Shown one piece after another: positions 16,235-42,167 of a DNA stretch of 64,000 bases (position 1 is its first letter; each line of letters opens with the position of its first letter). Below the pieces are notes generated by a model. That model searched no databases. It was not told the DNA's origin and saw only the letters and a list, made by a program, of their open reading frames with translations. This stretch comes from Pararhodobacter sp. GTDB taxonomy: Bacteria > Pseudomonadota > Alphaproteobacteria > Rhodobacterales > Rhodobacteraceae. The DNA is taken from contig JAFIEK010000011.1 of the NCBI GenBank assembly GCA_020832545.1, forward strand, positions 1 to 64,000, given 5' to 3'. A program made the position numbers and the translations under genes.

Positions 16235-17146
16235 TCAATTTCCGGCGATTCGTCCAGTTTGGTGCCGGTCATGGGCGGCCAGGCGATCACGGATCAGCGC
16301 AAAAAAGGCATCGCGGTAGTCCGGATGATCAATGGCGTGATCCACGATGGCTGAAAGATAGCCAAACTTCGCCCCGCAATCATAGCGCGCCGCAGTGCAG
16401 GCCAGCGCTGACACCTTGCCCTGCTTTGCCAGAATGTCGATTGCATCGGCCAGTTGGATCTCACCCCCCGCGCCGGGCTCAAGCGTGCGCAATACATCGA
16501 AGATCTCAGGCTCGAAAACGTAGCGGCCAAACGAGGCCAGCAAGGATGGCGCCTTGTCCGCATCCGGTTTCTCGACCAGCCCGGCCACAGGAATCTCATT
16601 GCCCCGCGCCTCTCCTCCCGGCACCACGATGCCGTAATTCGACACCTCTTCACGCAAGACCTTGTTGACGCAAAGCAGATTGCGCGGCGAGCGCTCAAAG
16701 GCTTCAACCAGATCCTGAGTTGGCAGGCGCGGGCCTTTCATCAGATCGTCGGCAAGAAGCACGGCAAAGGGCTGGTTGCCAACCGCAGGCGCGGCGCACA
16801 GAACGGCATGACCAAGGCCCAGCGGCTCGGCCTGACGTACAAAGATACAGCTCACACCCTCAGGAACAATGTTGCGCACCATTTCACGGATCTGGTGCTT
16901 GCCCTTGGCGGCGAGCTGCATCTCAAGCTCAAGATTGGCGTCAAAATGATCGCCGATCGCGCGCTTGTTGCGCCCGGTGACAAAGACCAGCTCGGTAATT
17001 CCGGCGGCAATCGCCTCTTCCACAGCGAACTGGACGATCGGCTTGTCGATGATCGGCAAAAGTTCTTTCGGCATGGCCTTGGTTGCGGGAAGAAACCGTG
17101 TTCCCAAACCAGCTACAGGAAAAACAGCCTTTTTAATTTGGCCCAT
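16235..17146 (-). CDS. galU: UTP--glucose-1-phosphate uridylyltransferase
   Basis: 303 residues. It makes UDP-glucose from UTP and glucose-1-phosphate. The N-terminus KKAVFPVAGLGTRFLPATKA is the classic nucleotidyltransferase signature, followed by MPKELLPIIDKP. Further family segments are FVTGRNKRAIGDHFD, GLGHAVLCA and FAVLLADDLM. GGGAGG-like sequence precedes the start. It forms a unit with galE and faces the sugar-dehydratase gene across a 339-base gap that must contain both promoters. Confidence 0.96.
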   Translation of the reverse strand: MGQIKKAVFPVAGLGTRFLPATKAMPKELLPIIDKPIVQFAVEEAIAAGITELVFVTGRNKRAIGDHFDANLELEMQLAAKGKHQIREMVRNIVPEGVSCIFVRQAEPLGLGHAVLCAAPAVGNQPFAVLLADDLMKGPRLPTQDLVEAFERSPRNLLCVNKVLREEVSNYGIVVPGGEARGNEIPVAGLVEKPDADKAPSLLASFGRYVFEPEIFDVLRTLEPGAGGEIQLADAIDILAKQGKVSALACTAARYDCGAKFGYLSAIVDHAIDHPDYRDAFFALIRDRLAAHDRHQTGRIAGN

Positions 17147-21714: not shown

Positions 21715-21939
21715 CAATTCACCCCTTTTTCCACCACCTCGACGATGCCCTTTCAGACCGGAAGCTGACGGCGCGAATTGATGGCAATTCTGCGGCCTTC
21801 GCGTTGCATTTTACTGGTTCGCACCCGGACACGGCGCCAACCTGCACGGGCAAAGTCAGGGGCAAAGCCACGGGCAAACCGTTGACAGCGGTGAGGAACT
21901 ATGCGTTCACGCTGCGGTCAAACGGGAATAGGAACCGGC

Positions 21940-22944
21940 ATGCAGGCGATCAGCAGCAACACGACAGGTGCGGGCACCGCACGGGGCAATGTCCGCCTTG
22001 TCGCCGTGGTGGTGACCCATGACCGCCTTGCGCAACTGAAGACCACGCTGGCCGCCCTTCTGGCCGCACCGCCTGAAGATCTGGCGGCGGTGCTGGTGGT
22101 CGACAACGCCTCAACCGATGGCACCGGCAACTGGCTGGCGACGCTGAGCGATCCGCGGCTTTGCGTGCTGACCAGTGAACGCAACCTTGGCGGGGCCGGG
22201 GGGTTTGAAACCGGGCTGCGCCACGCGCACGCGCATCTGCACCCTGACTGGGTGGTGGTGATGGATGATGACGCGCGCCCCGGCCCAGATGCGCTGGCCG
22301 CCTTTCATGCGCTGGATCTGTCGGGACTGGACGGGCTGGCAGCGGCTGTCCATCATCCTGACGGCACCATCTGCGAGATGAACCGGCCCACGCTCAACCC
22401 GTTCTGGCACAAACGCATCTTTCTGCGCACGGCTCTGGGCGGCGGGCGCGGGGCCTTCCACCTCGGCGCAGATGACTTCGCCACTTCGGGAACGCGGGCG
22501 ATCGACGGGGCATCGTTCGTGGGGTTGTTCCTGTCGGCCCGGGTCTTTGATCAGGCAGGCTACCCCGATGGTGCGCTGTTTCTATACGGCGATGACGCGA
22601 TCTACACACTGGGCCTGTCGCGGGCGGGCTACAGGCTGGGCTTTGACCCTTCGGTGCGGTTTGAACATGACAGCACCACCTATTCCGCCACCGACCGCCG
22701 CATCCGACCGTTGTGGAAGGTCTATTACTACCACCGCAATCTGCTGATCCTTTACCGGCTGGCGACGGGCGTGTTCTTTCTGCCGGTGCTTTTGCTGATC
22801 CTGCCCAAATGGCTGTCACGCCTGCGCCATCACAGCGGCGAACGGCGCGCCTTCCTGCGGCTGCTGGGGGCTGCCATCTGTGATGGGTTGGCCCGGCGCA
22901 CCAACGTGTCGCATGCCAGCATCATAGAGCGCTCGAGGTCCTAG
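21940..22944 (+). CDS. Glycosyltransferase family 2 protein, possibly a galactofuranosyl- or rhamnosyltransferase
   Basis: About 334 residues with a GT-A fold: VAVVVTHDRLAQLKTTLAAL, VLVVDNASTDGTGNWL, the NLGGAGGFETGLRHA segment, and the metal-binding VVVMDDDARPG. The NLGGAGGF...DDDA pattern is typical of GT2 rhamnosyl- and galactofuranosyltransferases. The C-terminal part has a hydrophobic stretch (FFLPVLLLILPKWL) that may associate with the membrane. Start at 21940 has AGGA 6 bases upstream; ATG 21901 with GAGGA is also possible. The nearby glf gene makes Galf a sensible donor, but this is inference. Its TAG stop lies within a repeat element. Confidence 0.88.
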   Translation: MQAISSNTTGAGTARGNVRLVAVVVTHDRLAQLKTTLAALLAAPPEDLAAVLVVDNASTDGTGNWLATLSDPRLCVLTSERNLGGAGGFETGLRHAHAHLHPDWVVVMDDDARPGPDALAAFHALDLSGLDGLAAAVHHPDGTICEMNRPTLNPFWHKRIFLRTALGGGRGAFHLGADDFATSGTRAIDGASFVGLFLSARVFDQAGYPDGALFLYGDDAIYTLGLSRAGYRLGFDPSVRFEHDSTTYSATDRRIRPLWKVYYYHRNLLILYRLATGVFFLPVLLLILPKWLSRLRHHSGERRAFLRLLGAAICDGLARRTNVSHASIIERSRS

Positions 22945-23046
22945 AGCATGTCGCTCGAAAGTGGATACCGATTTTGAGCTGTTCGATATGCGAAAACAAT
23001 AGTCTAGAGAAGATCACGTGAATGCGAATGAACGCGATCCGCTCTA
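22942..23046. repeat. 105-bp alphaproteobacterial intergenic repeat element
   Basis: The element is bounded by TAGAGC (22942-22947) and GCTCTA (23041-23046). It resembles a small palindromic element found in many copies in Rhizobiales and Rhodobacterales (internal AGAGCATGTCG and GAACGCGATCCGCTCTA-like ends). It fills the whole gap between two convergent genes, and its two ends supply the TAG stop codons of both. No transposase is present. Confidence 0.6.
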
Positions 23047-23955
23047 ACGGGCCAGAAGGTCCCGGTGATGACGCCGCACCAGAAGCAGCCCCAGCACCAT
23101 GGGAACAAGCCCCCAGAGCAACACATAAGTGATCGATATATATTCGGGTTTATAGGTCGGATAGAACCCGTCACGCATGATCCCGGTGATATGGATCAAA
23201 GGATTGTACCAGAGAATTTGCTGCGCCAGCAGCGGCAGGTCATCATAGAGCAGGATCACACCGGACATGATCATCAGCGGTGCCGTCAGAATGCGCCAGA
23301 TGTTTTCCGTCACCGGAAAGCGCATGAACATATAGATATTGAGCGAGCCGACGCCCAGCGCCATCAGCGCGGCCAGCGCATAGGCGGTCAGGATCTTGCC
23401 CCAGTCCAGAATGGTCCGGATGTCTTCATAGATGATGATGCCGGTCAGTATGATCCAGGACACAACCAGCCCGATCATGACGTTCAGCACGAAGCGCGCA
23501 ATCACCGCGTCAATCCAGGCGATGCGCGGATACTCCAGCAGCGAACTGGCCTGGGATAGCGACTTGGCAACAAATGTTGAATTCTGCTTAAACATGTTGA
23601 ACACCAGAATGCCCGTTCCCTTGAACAGGATATAGCTGGTGCCCAGACTGGGCGAACGCATAAGCAGCGAGAATGCAAATGCGAGCATTATGATGATCCC
23701 CAGCGGCTGCAGGAGGGCCCAGACGTAGCCGCCAGGGCTTCGCCCGAAGCGCGTTGACATCTCGCGCAGGATCAATGCCATGATCGAGCGCAGCGGCGCA
23801 TAACCCTGCGCAGTGCCGCGCGTGGCTGGGCGCAGCCCGGACGGGAATTGCGTAGGGCTCTGAGGCGCGTCGGACGGTTGCAGGGCAGGATTCCTTGCAC
23901 TGGTGTTTGCGTGCGGAAGTATGTAGAAATCAGCGGCAGGATTCAATTGCAACAA
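23044..23955 (-). CDS. kpsM: ABC transporter permease for capsular polysaccharide export (KpsM type)
   Basis: Up to 303 residues with six hydrophobic segments. The ABC-2 segment MALILREMSTRFGRSPGGYV (near 59) is the typical start of KpsM/CtrC/Wzm proteins and leads into the first helix (LLQPLGIIIMLAFAF). The subunit forms the inner-membrane channel that moves the finished glycan, driven by KpsT. The N-terminus is uncertain. The longest frame starts at a TTG (23955), only 13 bases from the start of the divergent gene, while the first ATG (23781) would shorten the protein to 245 residues and cut just before the first conserved helix. Confidence 0.9.
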   Translation of the reverse strand: MLQLNPAADFYILPHANTSARNPALQPSDAPQSPTQFPSGLRPATRGTAQGYAPLRSIMALILREMSTRFGRSPGGYVWALLQPLGIIIMLAFAFSLLMRSPSLGTSYILFKGTGILVFNMFKQNSTFVAKSLSQASSLLEYPRIAWIDAVIARFVLNVMIGLVVSWIILTGIIIYEDIRTILDWGKILTAYALAALMALGVGSLNIYMFMRFPVTENIWRILTAPLMIMSGVILLYDDLPLLAQQILWYNPLIHITGIMRDGFYPTYKPEYISITYVLLWGLVPMVLGLLLVRRHHRDLLAR

Positions 23956-23968: not shown

Positions 23969-25273
23969 TTGGACGAAACGACACAGGCCGCGCGGAATAA
24001 TAACCGTCAGAACCGGAAGCGCCCCGCCGACAAGACCGAGCGCGTCGCGCAGCGTATGGCGCGCAAGGCCGCTGCCCGGAACACAGGCCCCGCAATCGGC
24101 GGGAATGACGCCGACACGGACTCTGCCCTTGCCGGGTCCCCGATCGTTGTGCCCGCACGGCTGAAGCGGCGACATTACGGTCTGCTGCTGAGCCTAGTTT
24201 TCGTGATCGTGCTACCACTGTTTCTGACTGTCGGATATCTCTATGTCTTCGCCGAAGACCAATACGCCTCAAACACCGGATTCACTGTCCGGACCGAGGA
24301 AACCAGCTCGGCCAGCGATCTGGTGGGCGGGCTGTCAAACTTCATGGGTGGCGGCGGCGGAACCAGCAACACCGATGTCCTTTATGAATTCATGCAAAGC
24401 CAGGAAATTGTCGAGCGGGTGAATGCTCGGATCGATCTGGCCGAACATTACTCGCAGACCTGGCCCGGGGACCCGGTGTTTTCCATTTGGCCCGATGCTT
24501 CTGTTGAGGACCTGTTGTGGTATTGGCGGCGTATGGTGCGCATTTCCTATGACAAGAACTCGGGCCTGGTGGACATGCAGGTCCGCGCGCGCGACCCGCA
24601 GACTGCGCAGCTGATTGCCCGCGCGATCGTCGAGGAAAGCGAACAGATGATCAACGCGCTGAATGAGGCCGCGCGCCGCGATACAACCGCCAATGCCGCG
24701 CGCGATCTTGATGAGGCACTGACCCGCTTGCGCGCCTCCCGCGAGGCGTTGGCCGAATACAGGGCGCGCACCCAGATCGTTGATCCGATGGCCGATATCC
24801 AGGCCCGTATGGGCGTGCTGACCAATCTTCAGCAACAACTTGCCCAGGCGCTGGTCGATCTTGATCTGCTGCTGCCGTCGGTGACCAGCGATTCCGATCC
24901 CCGTCTGCGTCAGGCCCAGCGGCGGATCGAAGTGATCCGCGATCGCATCACCGACGAGCGGCGCAACTTTGCCACGCAGGATGTGACGGTATTCGACACT
25001 GATTATCCGCATCTGATCGCGCAGTTCGAAAGCCTGCGCGTGGATCAGGAATTTGCCGAAGGCACCTATCGCGCCGCGCTGACTGCGCTGGATTCCGCGC
25101 GCTCGAACGCCGCGCGCCAAAGCCTGTATCTGGCCACCTATATCCGGCCCACACTGGCCTCGCGCGCAGATTACCCGCAGCGCCTTGTGCTGTCCGGCCT
25201 CACGGCCATGTTCCTTGTTCTGATATGGTCGATCATGGCATTGATCTACTACAGTATCCGCGATCGCGGCTAG
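23969..25273 (+). CDS. kpsE: Capsule polysaccharide export inner-membrane protein (KpsE/CtrB/BexC type)
   Basis: 434 residues. A basic cytoplasmic N-terminus is followed by a transmembrane helix near 69-95 (GLLLSLVFVIVLPLFLTVGY), a long periplasmic part with coiled coil (near 235-345: DEALTRLRASREALAEYRAR), and a second helix at 403-428 near the C-terminus. This two-helix layout with a periplasmic coiled coil is that of polysaccharide co-polymerase proteins that link the ABC exporter to the outer membrane. The start is a TTG at 23969 (first ATG at 24056). The gene is followed after 43 bases by kpsT. Confidence 0.9.
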   Translation: MDETTQAARNNNRQNRKRPADKTERVAQRMARKAAARNTGPAIGGNDADTDSALAGSPIVVPARLKRRHYGLLLSLVFVIVLPLFLTVGYLYVFAEDQYASNTGFTVRTEETSSASDLVGGLSNFMGGGGGTSNTDVLYEFMQSQEIVERVNARIDLAEHYSQTWPGDPVFSIWPDASVEDLLWYWRRMVRISYDKNSGLVDMQVRARDPQTAQLIARAIVEESEQMINALNEAARRDTTANAARDLDEALTRLRASREALAEYRARTQIVDPMADIQARMGVLTNLQQQLAQALVDLDLLLPSVTSDSDPRLRQAQRRIEVIRDRITDERRNFATQDVTVFDTDYPHLIAQFESLRVDQEFAEGTYRAALTALDSARSNAARQSLYLATYIRPTLASRADYPQRLVLSGLTAMFLVLIWSIMALIYYSIRDRG

Positions 25274-25316: not shown

Positions 25317-25970
25317 ATGATCCGGCTGGAAAACCTATCCAAAGGCTTTTGGTTCAAGGGTGATTATGTCCCCGTGTTCAAGGGGTTGAACCTGACCATC
25401 CCTTCGGGTCGCTCGATCGGCCTTCTGGGCGGGAACGGGGCTGGCAAGTCAACCCTGTTGCAGATCATTGCCGGAACCATGCGCCCCGATAACGGACGTG
25501 TGGTCACTGACGGGGCAATATCCTGGCCGATCGGCATTGCCTCAAGCGTTCATAAGGAACTGACGGGCGAGCAGAACACCCGGTTCATTGCCCGCGCCTA
25601 TGGCGTGGATACAGATTCGCTTAGCGCGTTCGTGCAGGATTTCTGCGAGATCGGGCATCATTTCTATGCGCCAATCCGGACCTATTCCTCGGGCATGAAA
25701 TCGCGCCTGAACTTCGGAATATCGATGGGCATCCAGTTCGACACCTATCTGATTGATGAGGTGACCTCTACGGGGGACGCCAGATTCAAGCGAAAAAGCC
25801 GCCAGTTGTTTCGTGAACGTGTCAAATCTTCCGGGGCTGTCATGGTCAACCACAACCTCAAGGAATTGACAGATTTTTGCGACTGCGCACTGCTGATGCA
25901 CAAAGGCCAGATAAAGTTTTTCGAGGACCTGGACGAGGCAATCGCGGTTCACAGACGGCTCATGGCTTGA
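25317..25970 (+). CDS. kpsT: ABC transporter ATP-binding protein for capsule export (KpsT type)
   Basis: 217 residues. Walker A is GGNGAGKST (38-46), the signature is YSSGMKSRLNFGIS (near 122), and Walker B is YLIDEVTSTGD (near 142). The short length and the SSGM signature are those of polysaccharide/teichoic-acid ABC exporters. It powers the KpsM channel. It follows kpsE in the same direction with 43 bases between them. The outer-membrane partner (KpsD) and the Kdo-linker transferases (KpsC, KpsS) are not in the window. Confidence 0.93.
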   Translation: MIRLENLSKGFWFKGDYVPVFKGLNLTIPSGRSIGLLGGNGAGKSTLLQIIAGTMRPDNGRVVTDGAISWPIGIASSVHKELTGEQNTRFIARAYGVDTDSLSAFVQDFCEIGHHFYAPIRTYSSGMKSRLNFGISMGIQFDTYLIDEVTSTGDARFKRKSRQLFRERVKSSGAVMVNHNLKELTDFCDCALLMHKGQIKFFEDLDEAIAVHRRLMA

Positions 25971-26033: not shown

Positions 26034-26120
26034 ATGAGCAAGACGTTTTCTAATCCTGTCGGTCATTTCAAGACCTGCGCAACCTCGCTTCAGGCCGATC
26101 TCAGGCACAAGGCGGCCTGA
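26034..26120 (+). CDS. Possible 28-residue leader peptide before the glycosyltransferase
   Basis: A short frame (M-S-K-T-F-S-N-P ... H-K-A-A) with GGGG 6 bases before its ATG. Its TGA overlaps the next gene's ATG as TGATG, a typical translational-coupling arrangement. No family is recognised. It may be chance in a GC-rich genome. Confidence 0.3.
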   Translation: MSKTFSNPVGHFKTCATSLQADLRHKAA

Positions 26121-27601
26121 TGAAAATTCTGTATTACAACTGGGTAGACTATCTGGACCGCGAAAAGCGCGGCGGCGGCGTCAGCGTCTATCAGCGCAAC
26201 CTGCTGGCCGCACTTCATGCCCACGGCGGGATTGAGGCGCATTTCCTGTCCTCGGGCATGGCGCATGAGTTGCGGCGCCGCAGCCCGCGCTGGGTCGAAC
26301 TGCCCGCTGCACGCGATGAGGCGCCGGCGCGACGCTTCGAAATTGTGAACTCGGGCCTGCTATCGCCCTCGCATGCAGATTTCGCCAGTCCGGCGCAGCT
26401 TGAACACGCCGAAACCGAAGATGTGTTCGAAGACTTTGTCGCCCGCAACGGCCCCTATGACGTGATCCATTTCAACAACCTTGAAGGGCTGCCCGCAGCC
26501 GCCCTGCGCATCAAGGAACGCTGGCCTGCCACGCGCGTGGTGTTGTCGCTGCACAATTATTATCCGTTCTGTCCGCAAGTGAATCTCTGGCGCAACGAGG
26601 CCGAGCATTGCACCGATTTCGCCGCCGGGCAGCGCTGCGTGAACTGCCTGCCGGTACGCGCCGATCCCCGCTCGGTGCGGTTGGCGCATGCCGTCTCATG
26701 GCGGCTGAACCGGCTGGGCATGGGGCCCGGCACGCTGACCTTTGACAAGGGCTTTCGCCCGCTTCTGGGCCTGGCATGGCGCGGCTACCGCAAGCTCAAA
26801 CTGCTGCGACGGCCCCGGCCCGTGCCCGCAACGCTGTCAGCTGCGGTGCCGGACACCGGGGGCGCGGGCGCCTTTGCCGCGCGGCGGGCGGCGATGGTGG
26901 CGCTGATCAACACCCATGCCGATGCCGTGCTCTGCGTCTCGGACCGGGTGCGCCACATCGCGGCACATCATGGCGTTGCGCCCAGCAGACTGCATACCGC
27001 CTATATCGGCACGCAGGAGGCGGCGAAGTGGCAGACCACGCAGCCCCGGCCCCGCATGCTGCAATCAGATGGCACGTTGCGGCTGGCCTATCTGGGCTAC
27101 ATGCGCCGCGACAAGGGGTTCTTCTTTCTTCTGGACGCGCTGGAGGCACTGCCGCCCGCACTGGCCGCCCGCCTGCGCCTGACCGTCGCTGCGCGCCGGG
27201 GCGAGGCTGCGGTGGTCGCCCGTCTTCAAGCGCTCGCGCCCAAGTTGGCAGAGCTGCGACAGGTGAATGGCTACGCCCATGCCGGTCTTGACGCGCTTCT
27301 GTCGGATGTGGACCTTGGGCTTGTACCGGTGATGTGGGAAGACAACCTGCCTCAGGTCGCCATTGAGATGCATGCCCGCCACATTCCGATACTGACCTCG
27401 GACAGGGGCGGCGCGCAAGAACTGGGCCGTTGCCCCGATCTGACCTTCCGCGCGGGCGATACCGCCGATTTCGCACGCGCGTTGACAACAGTGCTTGAAG
27501 AACGCATCACCCCCGCCGACTACTGGCAAAATGTGATGCCTCCGGTGACGATGCAGGCCCATCTGGACCGGTTGCTGACGATTTACGAAGGAACGTCATG
27601 A
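26120..27601 (+). CDS. Glycosyltransferase of the GT4 type (GT-B fold)
   Basis: 493 residues. The N-terminus MKILYYNWVDYL and the segment GGGVSVYQRNL are typical of GT4 enzymes (donor-independent N-terminal domain). The C-terminal donor-binding half contains LRLAYLGYMRRDKGFFFLLD (near 325), VNGYAHAGLDALLSDVDLGLVPVMWEDNLPQ (written in part) and IPILTSDRGGAQELG, where the Glu binds the donor nucleotide sugar. Two central Cys pairs (CPQ...C, CVNCLP) are unusual and may bind a metal. Its stop overlaps the start of the sulfotransferase gene. It probably adds a sugar during capsule assembly. Confidence 0.88.
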   Translation: MKILYYNWVDYLDREKRGGGVSVYQRNLLAALHAHGGIEAHFLSSGMAHELRRRSPRWVELPAARDEAPARRFEIVNSGLLSPSHADFASPAQLEHAETEDVFEDFVARNGPYDVIHFNNLEGLPAAALRIKERWPATRVVLSLHNYYPFCPQVNLWRNEAEHCTDFAAGQRCVNCLPVRADPRSVRLAHAVSWRLNRLGMGPGTLTFDKGFRPLLGLAWRGYRKLKLLRRPRPVPATLSAAVPDTGGAGAFAARRAAMVALINTHADAVLCVSDRVRHIAAHHGVAPSRLHTAYIGTQEAAKWQTTQPRPRMLQSDGTLRLAYLGYMRRDKGFFFLLDALEALPPALAARLRLTVAARRGEAAVVARLQALAPKLAELRQVNGYAHAGLDALLSDVDLGLVPVMWEDNLPQVAIEMHARHIPILTSDRGGAQELGRCPDLTFRAGDTADFARALTTVLEERITPADYWQNVMPPVTMQAHLDRLLTIYEGTS

Positions 27602-28533
27602 AAGCCCTGATTCATATCGGAACCCCCAAATCCGGCACGACGACAATCCAGACCTTTCTTGCGATGAACCGGCACGCGCTGCGCGCGCAGGGGTTCCGCT
27701 ACGAGCCTTTCTTGCCGCGCAACGTGGCGCAGATGGAATTCGGTCTGGCCGGGATGATACGGGCCGGTGAACATGTCAATCAGCCGATCAAGCAATGGGC
27801 GCTTGGCGTCTATGACCTTGCCGCACAACGCGCCCTTGTTGACCGCTTCGAAGCCGCGCTGCGCGAAGGCGTGCAGACCTGGCCCGAACACACCTTTATC
27901 GCCTCCAGTGAACAGATCGGCTCATGGCTGTCCAAACCGCGCCGCATCCTGGCGCTTGATGAGTTCCTGCTCGATCAGTTCGAAGACGTGAAGTACATCC
28001 TCTACCTTCGCCCCCAGCACGAACTGATTGTGTCGTCCTATTCAGAGCGCGTCAAACGCGGCGAGACGCTGAGCTTTGATGAGCATTTCGCCCAGCGCCT
28101 GACCCGCATGAACTGGCACCGGCTCGCCAGCAAATGGGTGGACGCTGTCGGCGCCGACCGGCTGATCGTCCGCCTTCTGGACCGCTCAGAGCTGTTGAAC
28201 GGTGACCTGTTGGATGATTTCTGCAACATCACTTCACTGGATCGCGCGCCACTGGAAACACCACCCCGGATGAACACGGCCCTCTCGCTCGAAGAGATCG
28301 ACCTCCATCACAAGCTGACGCGCTATATCCCGGTGCGCAACCGGCGGGGCGCACCCAGTCAGGTGTTCCGCGCCGCGCTGAAGCTGGCGCGATACCGGCT
28401 GCCAAAACCGGGAACGCGCCTGCGCCTGAGCGCTGAGCAGCTTGCGGCGGTCCATGCTGAATATGAAGCCTCCAACGAGAAGTTGCGCGCCGCGTACTTT
28501 CCGCAACGCGCAACCCTTTTCACCACCCCATGA
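27598..28533 (+). CDS. Sulfotransferase-like protein, copy 1 of a tandem pair
   Basis: 311 residues. The 5'-phosphosulfate-binding motif is in IGTPKSGTTTIQTFL at the N-terminus, and YILYLRPQHELIVSSYSER (near 130) fits the 3'-phosphate-binding Arg-Ser pattern. A conserved KRGETLSFDEHF and a C-terminal basic segment follow. It overlaps the glycosyltransferase upstream and its paralogue downstream by ATGA each, so the three are translated as a unit. It probably sulfates a sugar of the exported polysaccharide, but no sulfate acceptor can be read from sequence. Confidence 0.8.
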   Translation: MKALIHIGTPKSGTTTIQTFLAMNRHALRAQGFRYEPFLPRNVAQMEFGLAGMIRAGEHVNQPIKQWALGVYDLAAQRALVDRFEAALREGVQTWPEHTFIASSEQIGSWLSKPRRILALDEFLLDQFEDVKYILYLRPQHELIVSSYSERVKRGETLSFDEHFAQRLTRMNWHRLASKWVDAVGADRLIVRLLDRSELLNGDLLDDFCNITSLDRAPLETPPRMNTALSLEEIDLHHKLTRYIPVRNRRGAPSQVFRAALKLARYRLPKPGTRLRLSAEQLAAVHAEYEASNEKLRAAYFPQRATLFTTP

Positions 28534-29459
28534 AGGCGCTGATACACATTGGCATGCCAAAGACCGGGACTTCCTCTATTCAGGAATTCCTGCATCTCAA
28601 CCGCGAGATTCTGGCATCCCGGGGCATCCGTTACGCCCGGTTTGATGACCGGCTGGGAAGCCAGTTTGAGCTTGCGGCAACCGGGCGCGTGGCCGCTGGC
28701 GCCGCGGTAACCGACGAATCCGCGCGCCTTGTGCTGCGCCTGAAAGCCCCGGGGGATGAGGGCACCTATGTCGCGCGCTACCGTGACTTTCTCGACGCCC
28801 AACTGCAAAGCTGGACGCAGGATCTGTTTGTCGCCTCCAGCGAACACATACAGGCGTGGCTGCACAAGCGCGACATGATCGAAGCGCTGGATGCTTTCCT
28901 TGGCACCCGGTTTGAATCGGTGCGCTATGTCGTGTACCTGCGCGCGCAAGAGGATCTTCTGATCAGCTCGTATTCCGAGCGGATCAAACGCGGTGAAACG
29001 CTGGATCTGGAAGAACACCTGACCAAGCGGATCAAGGCCGCAGACCTCAACCGGATTGTCGGACTATGGGAAAGAGCGGTCGGGCGCGACCGGCTGGACG
29101 TGCGACTGATGACCCCTGACGCGCTGGTGGGCGGTGATTTGCTGACCGATTTCTGCGATATCATGGGAACCGCGCGCAGCGGGCTTGAACACCCCGGCAG
29201 AATCAACACGTCGCTCAACCGGGATGAGATTTTCCTGCGCCTGAAACTGAACCGCTGGCTGTCAGTCCGCAGACGCCGCGACGGTGAATACAATCCGTTG
29301 TATTTCAAGACACTCGACAAGCTGAAAAAGCTGACACGCTGTGGCAATGAGCCGCTGGTGTTGACGCCCGAACAGCGTGATCGGATCACGGCTTACCACG
29401 CCCAGTCAAACGAGCGGCTGCGCGCGCGCAGGTTTCCCGAGCGCAGCACTTTGTTCTGA
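28530..29459 (+). CDS. Sulfotransferase-like protein, copy 2 of a tandem pair
   Basis: 309 residues, close paralogue of the gene upstream: MKALIHIGMPKTGTSSIQEF versus MKALIHIGTPKSGTTTIQTF at the N-terminus, and YLRAQEDLLISSYSERIKRG versus YLRPQHELIVSSYSERVKRG in the second motif. The last 4 bases of copy 1 overlap its start. The pair arose by tandem duplication and may act on two positions of one glycan. It is convergent with the sulfur operon, 37 bases away. Confidence 0.8.
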   Translation: MKALIHIGMPKTGTSSIQEFLHLNREILASRGIRYARFDDRLGSQFELAATGRVAAGAAVTDESARLVLRLKAPGDEGTYVARYRDFLDAQLQSWTQDLFVASSEHIQAWLHKRDMIEALDAFLGTRFESVRYVVYLRAQEDLLISSYSERIKRGETLDLEEHLTKRIKAADLNRIVGLWERAVGRDRLDVRLMTPDALVGGDLLTDFCDIMGTARSGLEHPGRINTSLNRDEIFLRLKLNRWLSVRRRRDGEYNPLYFKTLDKLKKLTRCGNEPLVLTPEQRDRITAYHAQSNERLRARRFPERSTLF

Positions 29460-34209: not shown

Positions 34210-37200
34210 TCAACTCCCGCCGCACACCTGCCGGACGAAAGAACACTGGTCAAATGGCACTGAAACCGCCGGTTCAAACAGCGAATCGCGCCCCTCGGAC
34301 ACCAAAGCCAGATACTTGCGGTACTCTTCGGCATTGTTGAAATGCTGCCGGCGCGAAACCTCGGCCAATGCCTTGGCCCGGAACGCCGCGTTATACTTGA
34401 AATGCGCGAAAAACAGCGGGCGGGTGGCAAGTTTCACTTCCGCCACCGCATGCAGCCCGGCAGAAAAGCGCATCCATGGCCGGTACTTCAAAAGCGCCGT
34501 CTTCTGCGCCACAAACAACTCTGCCCGTGAGCCGGGCAACAGCCGGTGGCGCAGCGCCGAGGTCACCACCGGCGCGTTGGTATACGGCCCCATCCCGCCC
34601 GAGACCTCAAGAAACGGATCGCGCTCACAAAACCCGGCCTCTGCAAACGGACCGTTGGTGAAATCAGCATCCGCCAGCAGCCCCGGCGGATACATGTCCA
34701 GCATGTAGAGCAGCGCGGCATCAGCCCCCGCAAAGGCATCGCTCTCCACCAGTTCCGGCAGGCTGCCGTCCAGGTCAGTGCGCCAGAACAACAGCTCATC
34801 CGCATCAGCCACCACCGACCAGCGATTGGTGCGGAAATTGCCAAGCAGCGCTTGTTGCCACGCCACGCCATAATGCGACTGGCTGTATTCGGTATCAACC
34901 GAGAAGAGCGCGACATCGGGCTGGTCTAACAACAGATCCAGCGTGCCGTCGTCTGACCCGTTGTCGGCGATCAGAAACCCCTCCACCCCCAGCTTGCGAT
35001 AATGCGCCAGAAAGTGCGGCAGCATGAACGCCTCGTTGCGCAGGCAGGCCACCACCGCAACCTGCGCGGCATTCACCTGCGCCAGTTTGTTCGCGCCCGA
35101 GATCAGATCAAGCGTATTTGACCGCGCGCCCAGCCGTACCGGCTGATAGCCGGGCCAGACCTTGGAGGGCTGCGGCAGGGGCTGGCGGCTGAGCGCCAGC
35201 ACCTCGGCCTGTCGCTCATGCCCGTCCAGATGCGCCAGCTTCACGCCGCCGCCCTTGAACGGCAAAAACCCGTTCTCCCATGCTGACACCAGCGGTCCGC
35301 CGGGGCGGGTGCGGCGCATGACGGCAATGCGGTAATCCTCGCCGGAAACGCTGACACCGCGCAACGCCAGCAGATCGCCGACCAGCTTGTCCTCCATGAA
35401 GGACACTTGCGCCAGCGCCCGCCCCTCGGCGCTGTCCGCCGCATCCACAAGCGCCGCCATCGCCCGGCGCGACAGCGTGTAGCCTGAACCGCCGTCGGCA
35501 TAGCGCGAGGGCTCGGGCGACTTGTCCAGCTCCATCCGCCCGCGGTCAGAGGCCGATTTGCCCATATGCCATGTGCGGTCCATCTGGCCGGGCACGCGGT
35601 GCAAGGGGCGGCCATAATAGTCGAATTTCAGATGGCTGAGAGACAGAAAGAACGCCTCCGGGTCAAGAAAGCAGTCATCGTCGATCTTCAGCAGATGCGA
35701 GAACGCGGTATGGTCATGGACCCAGCGCGCCATGGCGAGGGTTTTCTGCGGCAGACCCTCATAATCATCAGGGGCGTCCAGATGAACCACATCGCCCACG
35801 CGCTGCCCGTCCCCGTCGCCGACAAAGATCAGAAACGGCACGCCCAGCCCCTCCAGAAGCGCCATCCAGCCCGCGCGCATGGCGGCGATGCGGCTGTCCA
35901 GATTGGGCTGACAGGAATAGACCGCCACCAGCGTATCAAAGAGTGGGTTGGCGCGGGCCGCCAGATCTGCGGCGCGGTCATCCTGAGGGGCGGGAAGCGG
36001 CGGGAAGTCCGCGCCAAAAAGGCTCTCAGCCTGCGCGCAAAGCGGATGGTCAGGCAGATGGCAGCGCAGCGCCTGCATCGCCATGGCCGGCGCGGTGGCG
36101 CGGGCAAGCGCAGCGCGTTCTGTGGGCGACAGCGCGGCCACCAGCGCGCCTAACCGGGCCATCAGCGGCCCCGCGTCATCGCCGCGCTGCGCCAGCCCGG
36201 TGGCCAGCGACAGGCCCAGCCCGAACCCCAGAAACCCGCTTTGCGCCTGCGCCAGCGGCGGCAGGGCCTGCATGAAATCCGTCAGATCGCCCTGCCCGGC
36301 CAGAAGCGCGGCGGCCTGCCGCGCCAGCCGCTCCTGCAACCGCGCATTCGGTGCGCGCGACACCCGTTCATAAGCGGCGGGCAGCCCGCGCGCGGCGGCG
36401 TCCAGCAAGGCGGGCGAGGGGGGCGCGGCGTCAGGGCGGGGAAAGGCAAGATAGCGCAGCGCCGCCTCTTCAGGGTCCAGCCCGGTGGAAAGCACGGCAT
36501 CCGGGTCAAGCACCTGCCCCCCGGCCAGCGCAATCCCCGCCGGGCCCAGCAGTTCGCGCCGAAAGCGGGCCGCGCCGAACGCGCCCAGCCGCTCAAAATC
36601 AGCCAGCAGGCTGTCGATCTCTTCCTGTGCCGCCGCATCGCGCACGCCTGCCTCAACCCGCTCAGCCAAACGGGAAAAGCGCGACTGAGCATCGATGATC
36701 CGGCGTGGCGGGTCTGGCCAGTCACTGGCTCTGCGCGCCGCCAGCCCGGCCCAGAATGCGGGCGACAGGCCATAAACCGCCAAGGCCACCGCGATGATGC
36801 GCTCATGCAGCGCACGGGGGAAGGTCTCGGCCTGAACCAGCAGTTCGGTCACGGCCCCCATCAGCGCCAGACAGGGCACGCGGCCCCAGTAATCCTCTGC
36901 CCGTGCCTCGATCAGCCGCAGAAAGGCCCAGATCAGCGCCAGCCGCTCGCCTTCATCGAGCGGGCGGCCATCGGCGGCGGGGCTGTTCAGCGCCGCCTGC
37001 CGTGCCACCCACCCCAAGGCCGGAGTGACGATCCAGGCAGCCCCGGGCAGCATCAGCTTGGTGAGCAGGACGCGCATCGGCTCAGGCTTGGCATCCAGAT
37101 ACAGAAACGGCAGCACGCTGGTGTTGTGCCAGGGATCAGTTCCGGGTGCGAACCGTTCCAACCCCTCATCCAGCGCGAGGGCATGCAGCGCGCGCGGGTC

Positions 37201-38313
37201 GGCATGGGTGCAAAACCACTCACCCAGCCGCAGGATCAGTGCGCGCCGGTCACGTGCGGGCAGCGGGGTCTCGCGCTGGATATCGCGCAACAGGGTCACC
37301 GGGTCTGTTGCGGGCGCGCGGCGCATGGTGGCGGTAAAGCGGTCGCGGGCGCTGTTGACCGCCGCATGATCGATATCGACCCTTTCCTCTGCTTCTGCCA
37401 CCAGAATCGCCGGTGGTTCGGCCTGGTCCGTGCCATCAAACAGCCAGGCTGACAGGCGATAGTGCTCTGCAGCCCCGGCAACACCCGCACGGCCCTCGGC
37501 GCTCAGCCGGGTGAGCAGCGCACCGATCCGGCAATGTTCTACGGCCTGAAGCGCGGCGAGCGCATCATGCTTGAGCGATTGCGCGCGGGCCAGCGCATCT
37601 ATCCGGTCCGCAACCTCGGCGCGGGTGAGGGTGGTGCGGGCCAGTTCCGTGCCCTGTGCATCGACAAGGCGCAGCTCTGCCCCCTCGCCCGCATTGCACC
37701 AGATTCGGCCGGGCAGAACGCAGCGCAGCGCCGTCGCGGGTGCATCCTGTGGGCCGTAGGGCAGCGGCAGCTCCACCATCGGTAGCGCCGCGCCTAACCC
37801 CTGAACCTCAAGCCGCGCGCCGGGGCCGATGCCGTGCGTCACCGGGTGCAGCAGTTCCAGCCGGTCGGTCAACTCAAGTGGCCGGACGGCGGGCGCGAGC
37901 CCCAGATCAAGGCTGCCGGGCACATACCCGCCCCGGATATCGACATGGGTGATAGCACCCAGCGCGGGAAAGCCGCGCCGCATGTAAAACCGCCCCTCGG
38001 CATCAGGCCGGGGGAAGCGGTCAAACCGGCCCAGCACGTTCCCCTGGACCATCACCCGCGCCGTGCCCTTGTGAAACACAATCTCGACGGCCCCGCCCAG
38101 ACGCGCGAAATTCATGTTCCACACCATCTCACGCCGCCAGCCCGCCGGATCGCGGCGGTTGGCCACGGCAACCCCCTCGTCATGGCGCAGCGACAGGTGA
38201 AACAGGATCTGACTGCGCGTCAGATCAAAGAAATAAAGGTTGAGGACCGGAGTGTCGGAAAAATCTGTGCGGCAGAAAAACCGTGCGCCGCTCTTGGTCT
38301 TGAAAGGATACAT
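34210..38313 (-). CDS. Very large multidomain glycosyltransferase: galectin-like, GT31-like and GT2/GT92-like domains
   Basis: 1367 residues. N-terminal residues 15-140 look like a galectin: H39, S41, R43 (HLSLR), then V50-A-N52 (VAVAN), W59 and E62 (GWRRE) match the sugar-binding H-x-N-x-R...V-x-N...W-x-x-E set except Asn to Ser at 41. Residues about 796-990 carry the GT31 beta-1,3-galactosyltransferase motif series: RIAAMRAGW, DDYEGLPQKTLAMARW, KIDDDCF (D878-D880), RYADGGSGYTLSRRAM and MEDKLVG (E974). Residues 1085-1300 are a second GT-A domain (VACLRNEAFMLPHFLAHYRK; D1170-A-D1172). About 600 residues between 190 and 790 are unassigned and helical. Likely a galactosyltransferase of the surface glycan. 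Confidence 0.85.
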   Translation of the reverse strand: MYPFKTKSGARFFCRTDFSDTPVLNLYFFDLTRSQILFHLSLRHDEGVAVANRRDPAGWRREMVWNMNFARLGGAVEIVFHKGTARVMVQGNVLGRFDRFPRPDAEGRFYMRRGFPALGAITHVDIRGGYVPGSLDLGLAPAVRPLELTDRLELLHPVTHGIGPGARLEVQGLGAALPMVELPLPYGPQDAPATALRCVLPGRIWCNAGEGAELRLVDAQGTELARTTLTRAEVADRIDALARAQSLKHDALAALQAVEHCRIGALLTRLSAEGRAGVAGAAEHYRLSAWLFDGTDQAEPPAILVAEAEERVDIDHAAVNSARDRFTATMRRAPATDPVTLLRDIQRETPLPARDRRALILRLGEWFCTHADPRALHALALDEGLERFAPGTDPWHNTSVLPFLYLDAKPEPMRVLLTKLMLPGAAWIVTPALGWVARQAALNSPAADGRPLDEGERLALIWAFLRLIEARAEDYWGRVPCLALMGAVTELLVQAETFPRALHERIIAVALAVYGLSPAFWAGLAARRASDWPDPPRRIIDAQSRFSRLAERVEAGVRDAAAQEEIDSLLADFERLGAFGAARFRRELLGPAGIALAGGQVLDPDAVLSTGLDPEEAALRYLAFPRPDAAPPSPALLDAAARGLPAAYERVSRAPNARLQERLARQAAALLAGQGDLTDFMQALPPLAQAQSGFLGFGLGLSLATGLAQRGDDAGPLMARLGALVAALSPTERAALARATAPAMAMQALRCHLPDHPLCAQAESLFGADFPPLPAPQDDRAADLAARANPLFDTLVAVYSCQPNLDSRIAAMRAGWMALLEGLGVPFLIFVGDGDGQRVGDVVHLDAPDDYEGLPQKTLAMARWVHDHTAFSHLLKIDDDCFLDPEAFFLSLSHLKFDYYGRPLHRVPGQMDRTWHMGKSASDRGRMELDKSPEPSRYADGGSGYTLSRRAMAALVDAADSAEGRALAQVSFMEDKLVGDLLALRGVSVSGEDYRIAVMRRTRPGGPLVSAWENGFLPFKGGGVKLAHLDGHERQAEVLALSRQPLPQPSKVWPGYQPVRLGARSNTLDLISGANKLAQVNAAQVAVVACLRNEAFMLPHFLAHYRKLGVEGFLIADNGSDDGTLDLLLDQPDVALFSVDTEYSQSHYGVAWQQALLGNFRTNRWSVVADADELLFWRTDLDGSLPELVESDAFAGADAALLYMLDMYPPGLLADADFTNGPFAEAGFCERDPFLEVSGGMGPYTNAPVVTSALRHRLLPGSRAELFVAQKTALLKYRPWMRFSAGLHAVAEVKLATRPLFFAHFKYNAAFRAKALAEVSRRQHFNNAEEYRKYLALVSEGRDSLFEPAVSVPFDQCSFVRQVCGGS

Positions 38314-38410: not shown

Positions 38411-40207
38411 TTAGTCGCGCCGGGTCAGGCCCAGCGCCCGGCGCAGATGCGGCGAGGTCAGGCGATCGACGGGCTGACCGCTCAAGGGGCGCAACCCGAA
38501 CAGCCGCGCCACCAGCGCCGCACGCGCCACAACCCACAGCTTGGCAACGCGCCCATCTGTGGCTTGCAACATCGCCTGCATGCCCCGCGCAAAGATCACC
38601 GCCTCCCATCCGCGCGGCAGATCAGCCACCGGTGCCGTGTTGCGTGCCGCCCGCACCGCGAGGGCCAGCGCGAGCGGCGTGCCGCCGGGCCAGGCGCGGC
38701 TGGGAACGGCGAGGGCGGGAAAAGGGAAATACGCCACCGCGCCCGCCGCCTGCGCCTGCACCAGCAATTCGGCCTGCGCCGCCAGCACCCCGCCTCCGGG
38801 TCGGTCAACAAGATCGCGCCGCAAAATCCGCGCGGCAGGTTCAGGGTGCAGGCGCAGCGCGCGTTCAGGCGTCAACGCCAGCATGCCGCCTGACGGGGTG
38901 ATTGACGCGGCTTCATCGCCGAATGGTTCAGGGGTCTGAAGCGCGGGCTGAAAGAAGCCCCCCTCCCAGCGCCCCTGCTCAAAGCCCGACAGGCCAAGCG
39001 CCGCTTCCAGCCGCTCCATCCCGTTCAGCCAGACCTTGAAACACCCCGCCACCGGCTGGTCGCCCGGGCGCAGCGCAACGCGGTACAGACCTTGCGCCGG
39101 AGCGCTCAGTGGTTGCACCCGCGCGCCATTGGCCAGATGCCCGTGCGCCAGCAATGACGGCTCGTCGGTCAGCAGCTCGAAATCGGGCATGTGCTGGGCC
39201 TCAAGCGCCGCCAGGGTTTCGGCCATTGCGCCGGGCGTGGCAGCCTGCGTGGGCAAGCTGATGCTCAAGGGAAGGGTCCCGCGCATCACAAGCCCCAGTG
39301 CGGCGCTGATGTCCTCATCCCAGAACGGGGCAAAGGTGATGGCGTGTTCGTCAAAAAACGCGCCCGCCTGCTGCAAGAAACGCGCGCGCCGCCCGGGCTG
39401 GCGCAACACCCCGGCGCGCTCATGTATCAGTCGCGAGGCCAGCCGGGCGAACCCTTCGTCTGCACGCGCCGCCCCGCTGGCGCGCACCAGCCCCGCCAAC
39501 CGCTCCAAAACCGCGAATTGCTCGAACACGCGGTCATCATCAGCGCCGGTGATCTGGCCGGGCCGGGCGCGGGTGTGACGATAAAGCGGCTCTGGCAGAT
39601 ACAGCATATGCCGGGTGCGCGCGGCGAGCGCCCAGAAGAACTCATGATCCTCGAACCAGGTGCCTTCGCGAAAACGCAGCGCGCCGATCAGGCTGCGCCG
39701 GTACAGCTTGTTCCAGGCCGAAGGGAAATGCCGCGCAATCGCGGTGGCGTCATCAAACAGAACGCGCCGGGCCGGGCCGGGCTGCGGATCGGGGCTGCCG
39801 TGAAGGGCGGAATGGGGCCGCCCGGTGCCATCCGGAAAGCAAAGGGTGATCGCGCAGGCCACCCAATCGCCGCCATCGGCCACCAGCGCGGCGTACATCT
39901 GTGCCAGAAACCCGGGCGCGAACTGGTCATCGCTGTCCAGAAAGGCGATGAACTCGCCGCGCGCGGCCTCCAGCCCGGTGTTGCGCGCGCCGGAAAGTCC
40001 ACGGTTCGCTTGCCGGATCAGCCGGAAGCGGGGGTCGCCCGCGATCGCCTCCAGCGCCACTTCGCCTGACCCGTCGGTCGAGCCATCGTCAATCACCAGC
40101 GCCTCAAAATCAGTCAGGCTTTGGGCGCGCAGGCTGTCGATACAGGCCCCCACATGCGCGGCCACATTATAGACCGGGACAATGACGGAGATGCCGGGTG
40201 CGTCCAT
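38411..40207 (-). CDS. Glycosyltransferase family 2 protein with long C-terminal extension
   Basis: About 598 residues. The GT-A domain at the N-terminus is complete: ISVIVPVYNVAAHVGACIDSL, ALVIDDGSTDGSGEVA, NRGLSGARNTGLEAARGEFIAFLDSDD. The DSD motif binds the metal and donor nucleotide, and KLYRRSLI near 165 with FEDHEFFWAL contain the acceptor-side residues. The C-terminal 300 residues have no recognised domain. The start at 40207 (MDAPG) has AAGGA 6 bases upstream; the frame is open to 40270 but that overlaps the previous gene. It lies between the sulfotransferase and the galectin-GT31 gene on the same strand. Confidence 0.88.
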   Translation of the reverse strand: MDAPGISVIVPVYNVAAHVGACIDSLRAQSLTDFEALVIDDGSTDGSGEVALEAIAGDPRFRLIRQANRGLSGARNTGLEAARGEFIAFLDSDDQFAPGFLAQMYAALVADGGDWVACAITLCFPDGTGRPHSALHGSPDPQPGPARRVLFDDATAIARHFPSAWNKLYRRSLIGALRFREGTWFEDHEFFWALAARTRHMLYLPEPLYRHTRARPGQITGADDDRVFEQFAVLERLAGLVRASGAARADEGFARLASRLIHERAGVLRQPGRRARFLQQAGAFFDEHAITFAPFWDEDISAALGLVMRGTLPLSISLPTQAATPGAMAETLAALEAQHMPDFELLTDEPSLLAHGHLANGARVQPLSAPAQGLYRVALRPGDQPVAGCFKVWLNGMERLEAALGLSGFEQGRWEGGFFQPALQTPEPFGDEAASITPSGGMLALTPERALRLHPEPAARILRRDLVDRPGGGVLAAQAELLVQAQAAGAVAYFPFPALAVPSRAWPGGTPLALALAVRAARNTAPVADLPRGWEAVIFARGMQAMLQATDGRVAKLWVVARAALVARLFGLRPLSGQPVDRLTSPHLRRALGLTRRD

Positions 40208-40232
40208 GCTCATCCTTGCAGCCTGCGCCACC

Positions 40233-40877
40233 TCAGCAGTATCGGCCGTAGAGCGCGTAATCCTCGTCATAGAAGTCCTTGAGCAGCGCCAGATCTGTCG
40301 CGCTCAACTTGTCTGTGCTGATCTTTGGCCCGCCCTTCTGCAACCGGTCCAGTTGGGCGGAAACGCCGGTCAGCCGCGCCACCTCGGCCTGCATCTCGCC
40401 GGTGTCCTTGATCGGGTAGAGATGCGTGTAAAACTGCGGGTCCCGGCCCAGATACTCAACCATCGGCATGGCATGATGCCAGATGCTCTCAACAGCCGCG
40501 CAATACTCGGGCAGGCGCCTGACAAAGGTGGAAAGATCGGGGCTACAGGGCAGATCCGCGGCTTCAAGCGCGGCGCCCGCAGCGTCCCTGGACAGCTCTT
40601 TGTGATGCAGAACACGGTTCGAATAGCACGACAACAGCCGCTTTACAGGGTCGCGCACGACAGCCATGCGGCGATGCCCCTCCATCCGGGCGATATTCTG
40701 GTCGGTGAAGGGGATCGAAGGGTAAAAACGGTGGATCCACCACATCTTGCCGCTGGTGCGGAAAGGCTTGAAGCCGAAACCGTTTTCAACTTCGAAGAAC
40801 ATGACTTTGAGCGAGGTGCAGGCCACTTTCGGGACCGGGATGTAGCTTAGCTTGTGGTCCTCAAGAATAACCGTCAT
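40233..40877 (-). CDS. Carbohydrate sulfotransferase (Sulfotransfer_2 type)
   Basis: About 214 residues. The 5'-phosphosulfate motif is IPVPKVACTSLK near residue 14, and AVVRDPVKRLLSCYSN near 70 gives the 3'-phosphate motif R-D-P-x-x-R-x-x-S, the pattern of carbohydrate sulfotransferases such as chondroitin or HNK-1 types. Start 40877 has GGAG 8 bases upstream; an earlier ATG at 40898 is less likely. It is upstream of two glycosyltransferases on the same strand and divergent from another sulfotransferase. It probably uses PAPS to sulfate a sugar of the exported glycan. Confidence 0.88.
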   Translation of the reverse strand: MTVILEDHKLSYIPVPKVACTSLKVMFFEVENGFGFKPFRTSGKMWWIHRFYPSIPFTDQNIARMEGHRRMAVVRDPVKRLLSCYSNRVLHHKELSRDAAGAALEAADLPCSPDLSTFVRRLPEYCAAVESIWHHAMPMVEYLGRDPQFYTHLYPIKDTGEMQAEVARLTGVSAQLDRLQKGGPKISTDKLSATDLALLKDFYDEDYALYGRYC

Positions 40878-40910
40878 CGCGGCTGCTCCACCTGTCATTG
40901 CACCCTTCGG

Positions 40911-40955
40911 GGTCTGGCCCCGGCAAGCCGGGCTCAGACCGCGCGCGGTCTGAGC
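40911..40955. promoter_or_regulatory. Two overlapping inverted repeats between divergent sulfotransferase genes
   Basis: Palindrome B (40932-40955) is perfect over 24 bases (left arm GCTCAGACCGCG). Hairpin A (40911-40940) pairs GGTCTGGCCCCGGC with GCCGGGCTCAGACC (two mismatches or bulges). They share 40932-40940, so only one can form at a time. There is no T run. It may be an operator or a transcript switch. Confidence 0.5.
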
Positions 40956-41117
40956 AATATGTCATCATGCCAGTGCCTGCAACGGCCTTTCACCGCCGCG
41001 CGGACGGGCTTGTTCACTGGTGGCAAGGGGTTGCACGCCTTCAGGGCCGGGGATACGAAAGGCGGGTGCCACGGCCCGCCCGCTCAGGATTTCACGCTCC
41101 GCAAAGGACGCATGCCC

Positions 41118-42167
41118 ATGAAGGTTCTGCTTCACATCGGTTCTCCCAAGGCCGGCTCTACCACCATTCAGGCCGCGCTCAAGCTGAACCGTGACCGGCT
41201 GGCGGAGAGCGGTGTACTGGCCTGGCAGCCCAACTCTTCCAAGGGGCCGCCCGCGCGGGTTCTGGCCAACCGGTTCGCCCCGCCCCAGCGCCCGCTTCTG
41301 CCGGTCGAGCGGCTGCATTTCAGCACCCGCGAAGAAACCGTGGAATGGAGCCTTGAAAACTGGCGCGCGCTGTCTGCCCTGGTCAAAGAGCGCAAGCCCG
41401 CCCTGACCGTGCTGTCGAGCGAGTCGCTCTTTGCCGTGAAGCGCGTCAAGCGGGTGCTTGATGCGCTGTATGAGACCTTCAGCGACGTTACGATCCTGGC
41501 CTATATCCGCGACCCGGCCGAGCAATACAAATCCTCGCTGGATCAGGTTATCCGCGATGGTGCGCGCTTTTCCAAACTGGCACTGCCCACGGATTTCCAC
41601 TTCCCGCCGCATGCGACGATCCGCGCCTACCATGACATCCTTGGCAAAGAGCGCATGATCGTGCGCAATTTTGACCGGCGCAATCTGGCCGAAGGTGACC
41701 TGATCACCGATTTTTTCGGCCATGTAGCGCAGGTCGCCGGGACAGAGATAGCGGCACCGGAAACCCCGCCGCGCGCCAATGAAAGCCTATGCGCTTCGGC
41801 GACAATGTGGTTGTTGGGGGTCAACGAAATTTTCAACCGCTTCAGCACCGGCGGTGATCGCGACCTGATCAAACGCCGCATTGAACTTGTCCGGCGTCTG
41901 AGGCGCTCCCGCGCGCTGACCGGGCTACCCAAGCTGTCGCTGGGCAATTCCGATGTTGCGCTGTGGGCACGTGATGCTGAGCGTGCGGGGATCGAGTATT
42001 ATAACACCGTCTTTTTCCACGATCAGATTGCGCTGGAAACAGCGCCCGTCGGTCTGACCCTGCCTGAGCCCGATGAAATGCGTCGCTCCCTGCACGAATG
42101 GCTGATCAGTCAGGCCGTGCCCGAGCATCTGCCATTGGTGCTGCGCGAAGCCATCAAGCCAGAATAG
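41118..42167 (+). CDS. Sulfotransferase-like protein related to the tandem pair at 27.6-29.5 kb
   Basis: About 349 residues. The N-terminus MKVLLHIGSPKAGSTTIQAA has the same 5'-phosphosulfate motif and the same preceding strand as the two tandem paralogues; ILAYIRDPAEQYKSSLDQV (near 130) gives the 3'-phosphate motif. The gene is oriented away from the carbohydrate sulfotransferase. Two starts are close together (41112 and 41118); 41118 is preferred because it gives the family N-terminus and a 9-base spacing to AGGA. A role in glycan sulfation is inferred from relatives and location. Confidence 0.8.
   Translation: MKVLLHIGSPKAGSTTIQAALKLNRDRLAESGVLAWQPNSSKGPPARVLANRFAPPQRPLLPVERLHFSTREETVEWSLENWRALSALVKERKPALTVLSSESLFAVKRVKRVLDALYETFSDVTILAYIRDPAEQYKSSLDQVIRDGARFSKLALPTDFHFPPHATIRAYHDILGKERMIVRNFDRRNLAEGDLITDFFGHVAQVAGTEIAAPETPPRANESLCASATMWLLGVNEIFNRFSTGGDRDLIKRRIELVRRLRRSRALTGLPKLSLGNSDVALWARDAERAGIEYYNTVFFHDQIALETAPVGLTLPEPDEMRRSLHEWLISQAVPEHLPLVLREAIKPE

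Follow-up and report, generated by a model that had tools for sequence, protein, structure and literature searches.

Within the first 64,000 nucleotides of contig JAFIEK010000011.1 from Pararhodobacter sp. (the window), a single open reading frame on the minus strand encodes a 1367-residue glycosyltransferase (GT) that joins an N-terminal galectin domain to a GT31 and a GT2 domain. As judged by family profile and predicted structure, the N-terminal domain is a galectin, although it falls below the threshold by Pfam alone. On balance, we favor a function as a two-headed and presumably cytoplasmic glycosyltransferase for a probably sulfated capsule-type polysaccharide exported by a Kps-like system, in which the galectin would hold the growing beta-galactoside chain. 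The initial annotation of this DNA had given the position and length of the reading frame exactly, and the residues that it named (H39, R43, N52, W59, E62, D878, D880, E974, D975, D1170 and D1172) were located where it placed them. The protein is organized as follows.

34210..38313, minus strand: galectin-GT31-GT2 glycosyltransferase, 1367 amino acids (open reading frame and Pfam).
37924..38313, minus strand: galectin domain, residues 1-130, with H39, S41, R43, N52, W59 and E62 (family profile, AlphaFold2 strands and Foldseek; PF00337 below cut-off).
37369..37923, minus strand: residues 131-315, beta-rich with a conserved PGRxW (201-205), then the first helices (AlphaFold2 and conserved columns; no family found).
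35959..37368, minus strand: residues 316-785, helical, without family match (AlphaFold2; no PDB profile match at E<=1).
35209..35958, minus strand: GT31 domain, residues 786-1035, with D878/D880, E974-D975 and H1028 (PF01762, B3GALT6 in PDB, Foldseek).
34213..35073, minus strand: GT2 domain (PF13704), residues 1081-1367, with D1170-x-D1172-E1173 (Pfam and conservation).

The Pfam galectin family PF00337 matches residues 32-97 with E 0.052, scoring 13.5 bits in the whole protein and 18.7 bits for the domain alone vs a cut-off of 22.1. The cut-off is reached by one relative (G228, 23.1 bits), and 20 of the 22 family members match PF00337 singly at E<=1 (best 1.8e-8). An alignment of residues 1-135 from 22 family proteins, the window copy included, gave a profile (A1), which retrieved from PDB galectin-9 (E 2e-14), the Toxascaris galectin (about 3e-12) and galectin-8 (about 3e-9). 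The 60 listed of its 184 matches at E<=10 carry galectin names, old galectin-10 names or, for 2wsu, the name 'putative fiber protein'. A 30-row profile of the middle of the family proteins gave no PDB sequence match at E<=1 and thus serves as a negative control for this result. In the AlphaFold2 model of residues 1-790 (mean predicted local distance difference test score, pLDDT, 84; predicted template modelling score, pTM, 0.49), residues 1-100 form a run of beta strands with pLDDT of 76-92 by block, dropping to 52 at 101-110. The first notable predicted galectin strand starts at residue 10, which leaves no room for an N-terminal anchor ahead of the domain. H39-R43, N52 and W59-E62 are located on three successive predicted strands (36-43, 48-55 and 58-66), an order suggesting that the contact residues lie in one groove. 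All 50 Foldseek matches listed for residues 1-790 belong to the galectin family (probability 1.00, best E 3e-6), with template modelling scores of 0.48-0.75 for single-domain and 0.35-0.38 for two-domain targets. The profile score, the predicted strand run and the fold matches thus agree with the galectin-type N-terminus proposed in the initial annotation, and the outcome that it had named as contrary, residues 1-150 lacking a galectin sandwich, did not occur in the model. The searches with PF00337 and PF01762 that it had recommended gave a split result for the window copy, the latter family lying above its cut-off and the former below. A chance motif match, considered as an alternative, is ruled out by profile, fold, conservation and the middle-region control. 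The domain resembles galectins such as galectin-9 and the Toxascaris protein in sequence profile and fold but differs from them in forming the N-terminus of a bacterial glycosyltransferase. Galectins are usually regarded as lectins of eukaryotes, and no galectin domain in a bacterial glycosyltransferase appeared among the literature matches listed, which do not cover subscription papers.

The galectin sugar-contact set consists of H, N and R, followed by N and then by W, E and R. Nine columns are invariant in A1 (F28, F38, H39, S41, R43, N52, W59, E62 and G128), and six of these are among the seven positions that we take to be sugar contacts from galectin-1 numbering; the probability of such an overlap at random is 8e-8, as computed after the columns were seen. 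Among 38 distinct lectins, N52 and W59 are present in all 38, S41, R43 and E62 in 37 each and H39 in 36. The second residue of H-x-N-x-R is Ser in 37 of the 38, the last Arg of the galectin site is not conserved among them, and two copies have lost part of the site (H39 and S41 in L093; H39, R43 and E62 in L095). These changes would fit a galectin that has lost sugar binding and serves as a structural or protein-binding module, a reading we consider quite improbable given that six of the nine invariant columns are sugar-contact positions and that the solved Toxascaris galectin (4hl0) likewise carries H-x-S-x-R in the profile alignment. In L093 and L095, the GT motif residues are intact despite the partly lost lectin contacts.

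The identity of the two TRANSFERASES in the C-terminal half is supported at several levels. PF01762 matches residues 839-988 (E 2e-8, 34.7 bits vs a cut-off of 23) and PF13704 residues 1092-1186 (E 6.7e-23, 81.5 bits vs 27.5), both above cut-off. A 23-row profile of the C-terminal half (A3) retrieved from PDB the GT31 enzymes B3GALT6 (2.6e-8) and B3GALT5 (4.8e-5), followed by GmaR (0.0048), which is matched via the GT2 domain, and weakly by C1GALT1 (0.039) and CHSY3 (0.21). The GT31 residues D878, D880, E974, D975 and H1028 and the GT2 residues D1170, D1172 and E1173 are kept in all 39 distinct sequences. According to excerpts of PMC7185993 and PMC12748766, the Asp of the xED motif is the usual catalytic base in inverting GT-A enzymes and the C-terminal His is a core residue. 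When the AlphaFold2 model of residues 786-1367 (pLDDT 84, pTM 0.59) was compared by Foldseek, ranks 1-4 were taken by the GT31-containing CHSY3-CHPF and B3GALT6, lysyl hydroxylase LH3 and the K4 chondroitin polymerase came next, and C1GALT1 and Manic Fringe stood at 16-18; this query comprises two GT domains, and the list does not separate which of them each match covers. A non-GT31 identity of the central domain, named by the initial annotation as the result that would count against it, is ruled out by the Pfam, PDB profile and fold matches, and the second GT-A domain with D1170-x-D1172 that it had described is recovered above the Pfam cut-off with these two residues kept in all 39 sequences.

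The GT31 head would attach a single sugar with inversion, in a transfer of the beta-1,3 type. Its donor is probably UDP-galactose, since both GalE and GalU are encoded in the window. The head may instead transfer another sugar, such as glucuronic acid or N-acetylglucosamine, giving a glycosaminoglycan-like product rather than a galactan. The top fold matches are to CHSY3-CHPF, whose GT31 domain is a glucuronosyltransferase, and GT31 spans diverse beta-1,3-transferases, as described in parts of PMC12748766. The best sequence match, on the other hand, is beta-1,3-galactosyltransferase 6, and GalE and GalU accompany the gene, although neither point fixes the donor; we regard a donor other than galactose as possible but doubtful. 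In the favored two-headed mechanism, the GT2 head would then add the next sugar or a branch, the galectin would grip the beta-galactoside of the nascent chain and so keep its end close to the catalytic sites, bridging the helical region, and a KpsM/E/T-like ATP-binding cassette (ABC) system would export the polysaccharide, which is probably sulfated.

Two GT-A domains with catalytic motif residues are present in one chain, as expected for a two-headed polymerase of the chondroitin synthase kind. The E. coli K4 chondroitin polymerase likewise combines two GT-A domains in a capsule-type polymerase and is matched by Foldseek (2z86 and 2z87); it is not known to have a GT31 or a lectin domain. The animal enzymes CHSY1 and CHSY3 (GT31 and GT7) resemble the bacterial protein in that a further GT-A domain comes after GT31 in the same chain, as seen in parts of PMC12748766, and provide the top C-terminal Foldseek matches, whereas their second domain is GT7 rather than the PF13704-type GT2 found here. 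Because the whole-chain superposition with CHSY3-CHPF is poor (root-mean-square deviation of about 23-25 Å), these matches do not establish a common two-domain arrangement. The words 'galectin' and 'lectin' are absent from the main text of PMC12748766.

The architecture had been likened by the initial annotation to that of the plant GALT galactosyltransferases, and this comparison holds for domain content but not for layout. In plant GALTs, the galectin precedes the GT31 domain at close spacing and no further GT domain is known. In the window protein, 650 residues separate the lectin match from the GT31 match (Pfam), and a GT2 domain follows; by this layout, membership in the plant GALT group was ruled out. 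The bacterial protein further differs in its size, its capsule-type setting and its sulfotransferase neighbors. What is shared is a PF00337-type galectin and a PF01762-type GT31 in one chain, a combination that functions in glycan synthesis in plant GALT1-GALT6, which are predicted type II Golgi membrane proteins (PMC4687291, in part); plant hydroxyproline GALTs have 338 to 741 residues (PMC8667403, in part). The latter paper states that the role of the galectin in plant GT31 enzymes is not known and suggests that it may hold a galactose. Since the galectin lies at the very N-terminus of a bacterial enzyme present in cultured strains, its role is directly testable by removal or mutation, and the bacterial enzyme could show what galectin domains do in the matching plant enzymes. 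If the product is a sulfated galactan-like capsule, the locus would also represent a bacterial route to such polymers.

The distribution of the protein was assessed in genome samples that are draws and not complete sets. Within the genus, a search with residues 1-1024 was positive at E<=1e-10 in 15 of 18 genomes, counting the own one, with some of the matches being fragments at contig ends; the same copy occurs in L002 (Pararhodobacter oceanensis) and G200, by which the genus would be that of P. oceanensis. Among 198 genomes drawn from the family, 172 match, nearly all by the GT2 domain alone, and seven (own included) near full length. At the order level, 390 genomes from 139 genera were searched with the lectin profile, and 22 of them (own included), which represent 16 genera of a single family, gave a match, always in an open frame of at least 1360 amino acids. 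Among 385 genomes of the class, A1 matched the own genome and one fragment only (G542); the latter is confined to positions 92-133 of the profile, contains a stop and was rejected as a chance match. Of the 38 distinct lectins, 37 are followed by GT31 in frame and the remaining one runs off its contig, and the lectin-GT31-GT2 order is identical in all 36 copies that have the three domains. This order recurs in other Rhodobacterales, where the initial annotation had proposed to look for it. PF00337 at E<=0.001 matched one of 398 phylum genomes (G228, which carries the same protein), missing the window copy, and none of 14 control genomes, whereas at E<=1 below-cut-off matches appeared in 6 of the 14. 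PF01762 at E<=1e-4 matched two of the 398 (the own genome and G228), in each case via the main protein. As PF00337 is insensitive here, rarity outside the family rests on A1 in the 385 class genomes, which is no proof of absence. No NCBIfam family matches the 1367-residue protein at E<=0.1.

Copies of the gene that span 81-83% of the query are present in five plasmid records; in a sixth record, the match is limited to the GT2 domain. The five copies (L109-L113) reside on roseobacter plasmids of 50-125 kb and possess all three domains in every case; three of them presumably correspond to loci L082, L087 and L088. Plasmid relatives are annotated merely as 'glycosyltransferase' or 'glycosyltransferase family 2 protein'. 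On three plasmids, Thalassococcus pS3B, Tropicibacter oceani unnamed3 and Sulfitobacter W027 unnamed4, the gene is accompanied by a RepA initiator, rfbABCD, the exporter and a sulfotransferase. No rfb genes were seen in the 44 of 85 kb viewed of the Sulfitobacter D7 plasmid, which has repC and galE, or in the 31 of 125 kb viewed of the Palleronia plasmid, which has UDP-galactopyranose mutase and kdsA, and no rfb or replication gene was found among the 27 window proteins scanned. The RepA-type initiator and rfbABCD of three of the five copies recall the roseobacter rhamnose-operon biofilm plasmids of a 2016 study; the copy in the window, by contrast, has sulfur-assimilation and asd genes in its vicinity. 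PMC10090131 cites that study and reports finding no rhamnose operon in its own strains. A broader proposal would make the protein a bacterial counterpart of animal chondroitin synthase, namely a GT31 and GT2 polymerase with a galectin clamp for a sulfated galactose-containing capsule in Rhodobacteraceae, its galectin and GT31 possibly of eukaryotic origin and disseminated in part by biofilm-type plasmids; taken as a whole, we consider this speculative and rather unlikely.

The neighborhood of the gene bears on its proposed role in capsule synthesis. We compared the window with 26 related loci by tblastn, the counts including the source locus where the query came from it and some neighborhoods ending at contig edges. 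The relevant genes of the window are the following.

14382..15167, plus strand: Stf0-type sulfotransferase (PF09037, E 3.2e-7, 30.5 bits vs 22).
15182..16165, minus strand: GalE, UDP-glucose 4-epimerase, source of UDP-galactose (TIGR01179 above cut-off).
16235..17146, minus strand: GalU, UTP-glucose-1-phosphate uridylyltransferase (TIGR01099 above cut-off).
21901..22944, plus strand: GT2 glycosyltransferase (Pfam; 18 of 26 loci).
23044..23955, minus strand: KpsM-like ABC permease (PF01061 above cut-off; NF050053 E 5e-20, below cut-off; 15 of 26 loci).
23969..25273, plus strand: KpsE/BexC/CtrB-like export protein (TIGR01010 E 3.9e-65, below curated cut-off; 15 of 26 loci).
25317..25970, plus strand: ABC transporter ATPase, KpsT/Wzt-like (PF00005 above cut-off; polysaccharide-export NCBIfam models best, below cut-off; 16 of 26 loci).
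26120..27601, plus strand: glycosyltransferase, Pfam 'group 1', a conserved neighbor (Pfam; 20 of 26 loci).
27598..28533, plus strand: putative sulfotransferase-like protein (Sulfotransfer_1 E 0.0054, below cut-off).
28530..29459, plus strand: putative, weakly sulfotransferase-like protein (BLAST grouping; no Pfam match).
38411..40270, minus strand: partner GT2 gene, 619 amino acids (PF00535).
40854..42167, plus strand: putative, weakly sulfotransferase-like protein (groups with 27598-28533 by BLAST; no Pfam match).

At least one KpsM/E/T homologue is present in 17 of the 26 loci and all three in 14, and a sulfotransferase homologue is found in 23 (Pfam-supported types in 21). The Stf0-type gene has no homologue in the 26 loci. 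The suggestion in the initial annotation that the protein extends a galactose-rich surface glycan fits the exporter, GalE and GalU of the window, as well as the UDP-galactopyranose mutase homologue found in 10 of the 26 loci. Two open frames of the KpsC/KpsS type (PF05159, above cut-off) are located on another contig of the genome; among 14 control genomes, PF05159 gave matches in two, those of E. coli and B. subtilis.

The partner GT2 gene lies directly upstream of the main gene on the same strand, 97 bases apart, and was detected in 24 of the 26 loci. Of the 36 complete copies, 11 have more than 450 residues of open frame ahead of the lectin, indicating a fusion of the partner in front of the main gene. 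The leading parts of all 11 align with the partner GT2 at 38-46% identity, and one such fusion, on a Sulfitobacter plasmid, has been annotated as a single coding sequence. In the GT31-GT2 tree, ten of the 11 fused copies fall into a supported group of 12 alongside two unfused ones, and the eleventh (L097) adjoins an unfused copy, a placement suggesting that the fusion may have been gained or lost more than once. With the fused partner, one chain carries three GT domains, which suits chain building and is still compatible with branching. This bears on a reading in which the enzyme decorates, attaching side-branch sugars to a backbone that the partner GT2 and the other glycosyltransferases of the locus make and that the galectin recognizes in place of its own product. 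The locus does hold several other glycosyltransferases, and plant galectin-GT31 enzymes are reported not to polymerize but to attach the initial galactose to hydroxyproline or to build the Lewis a epitope (PMC4687291 and PMC8667403); we nevertheless judge decoration rather unlikely. The second half of the partner is GT2-like and shows P/A-G-D at the DxD position in 11 of 12 rows, which suggests an inactive second domain.

Several observations weigh against the favored interpretation as a capsule-type polymerase with a chain-holding galectin, beginning with the changes in the galectin site described above. Within the genus itself, genome G208 (locus L053, 970-1347) keeps GT31-GT2 with an N-terminus matching neither the lectin profile nor PF00337. 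Every Kps gene is missing from nine of the 26 loci, every sulfotransferase type from three and the partner GT2 from two, as far as tblastn reaches in loci some of which end at contig edges. In the window, the Kps-like genes score below the NCBIfam equivalog cut-offs, and sulfur-assimilation genes (29913-34040; PAPS reductase, sulfite/nitrite reductase and siroheme synthase) stand between the main gene and the exporter.

Two further features of the neighborhoods were observed. Locus L001 is also flanked by homologues of PAPS reductase and siroheme synthase. An RTX calcium-binding protein is encoded at 19423-21717, near the exporter genes; L002 has an RTX protein near its exporter too, and the BLAST cluster of the latter occurs in 11 neighborhoods.

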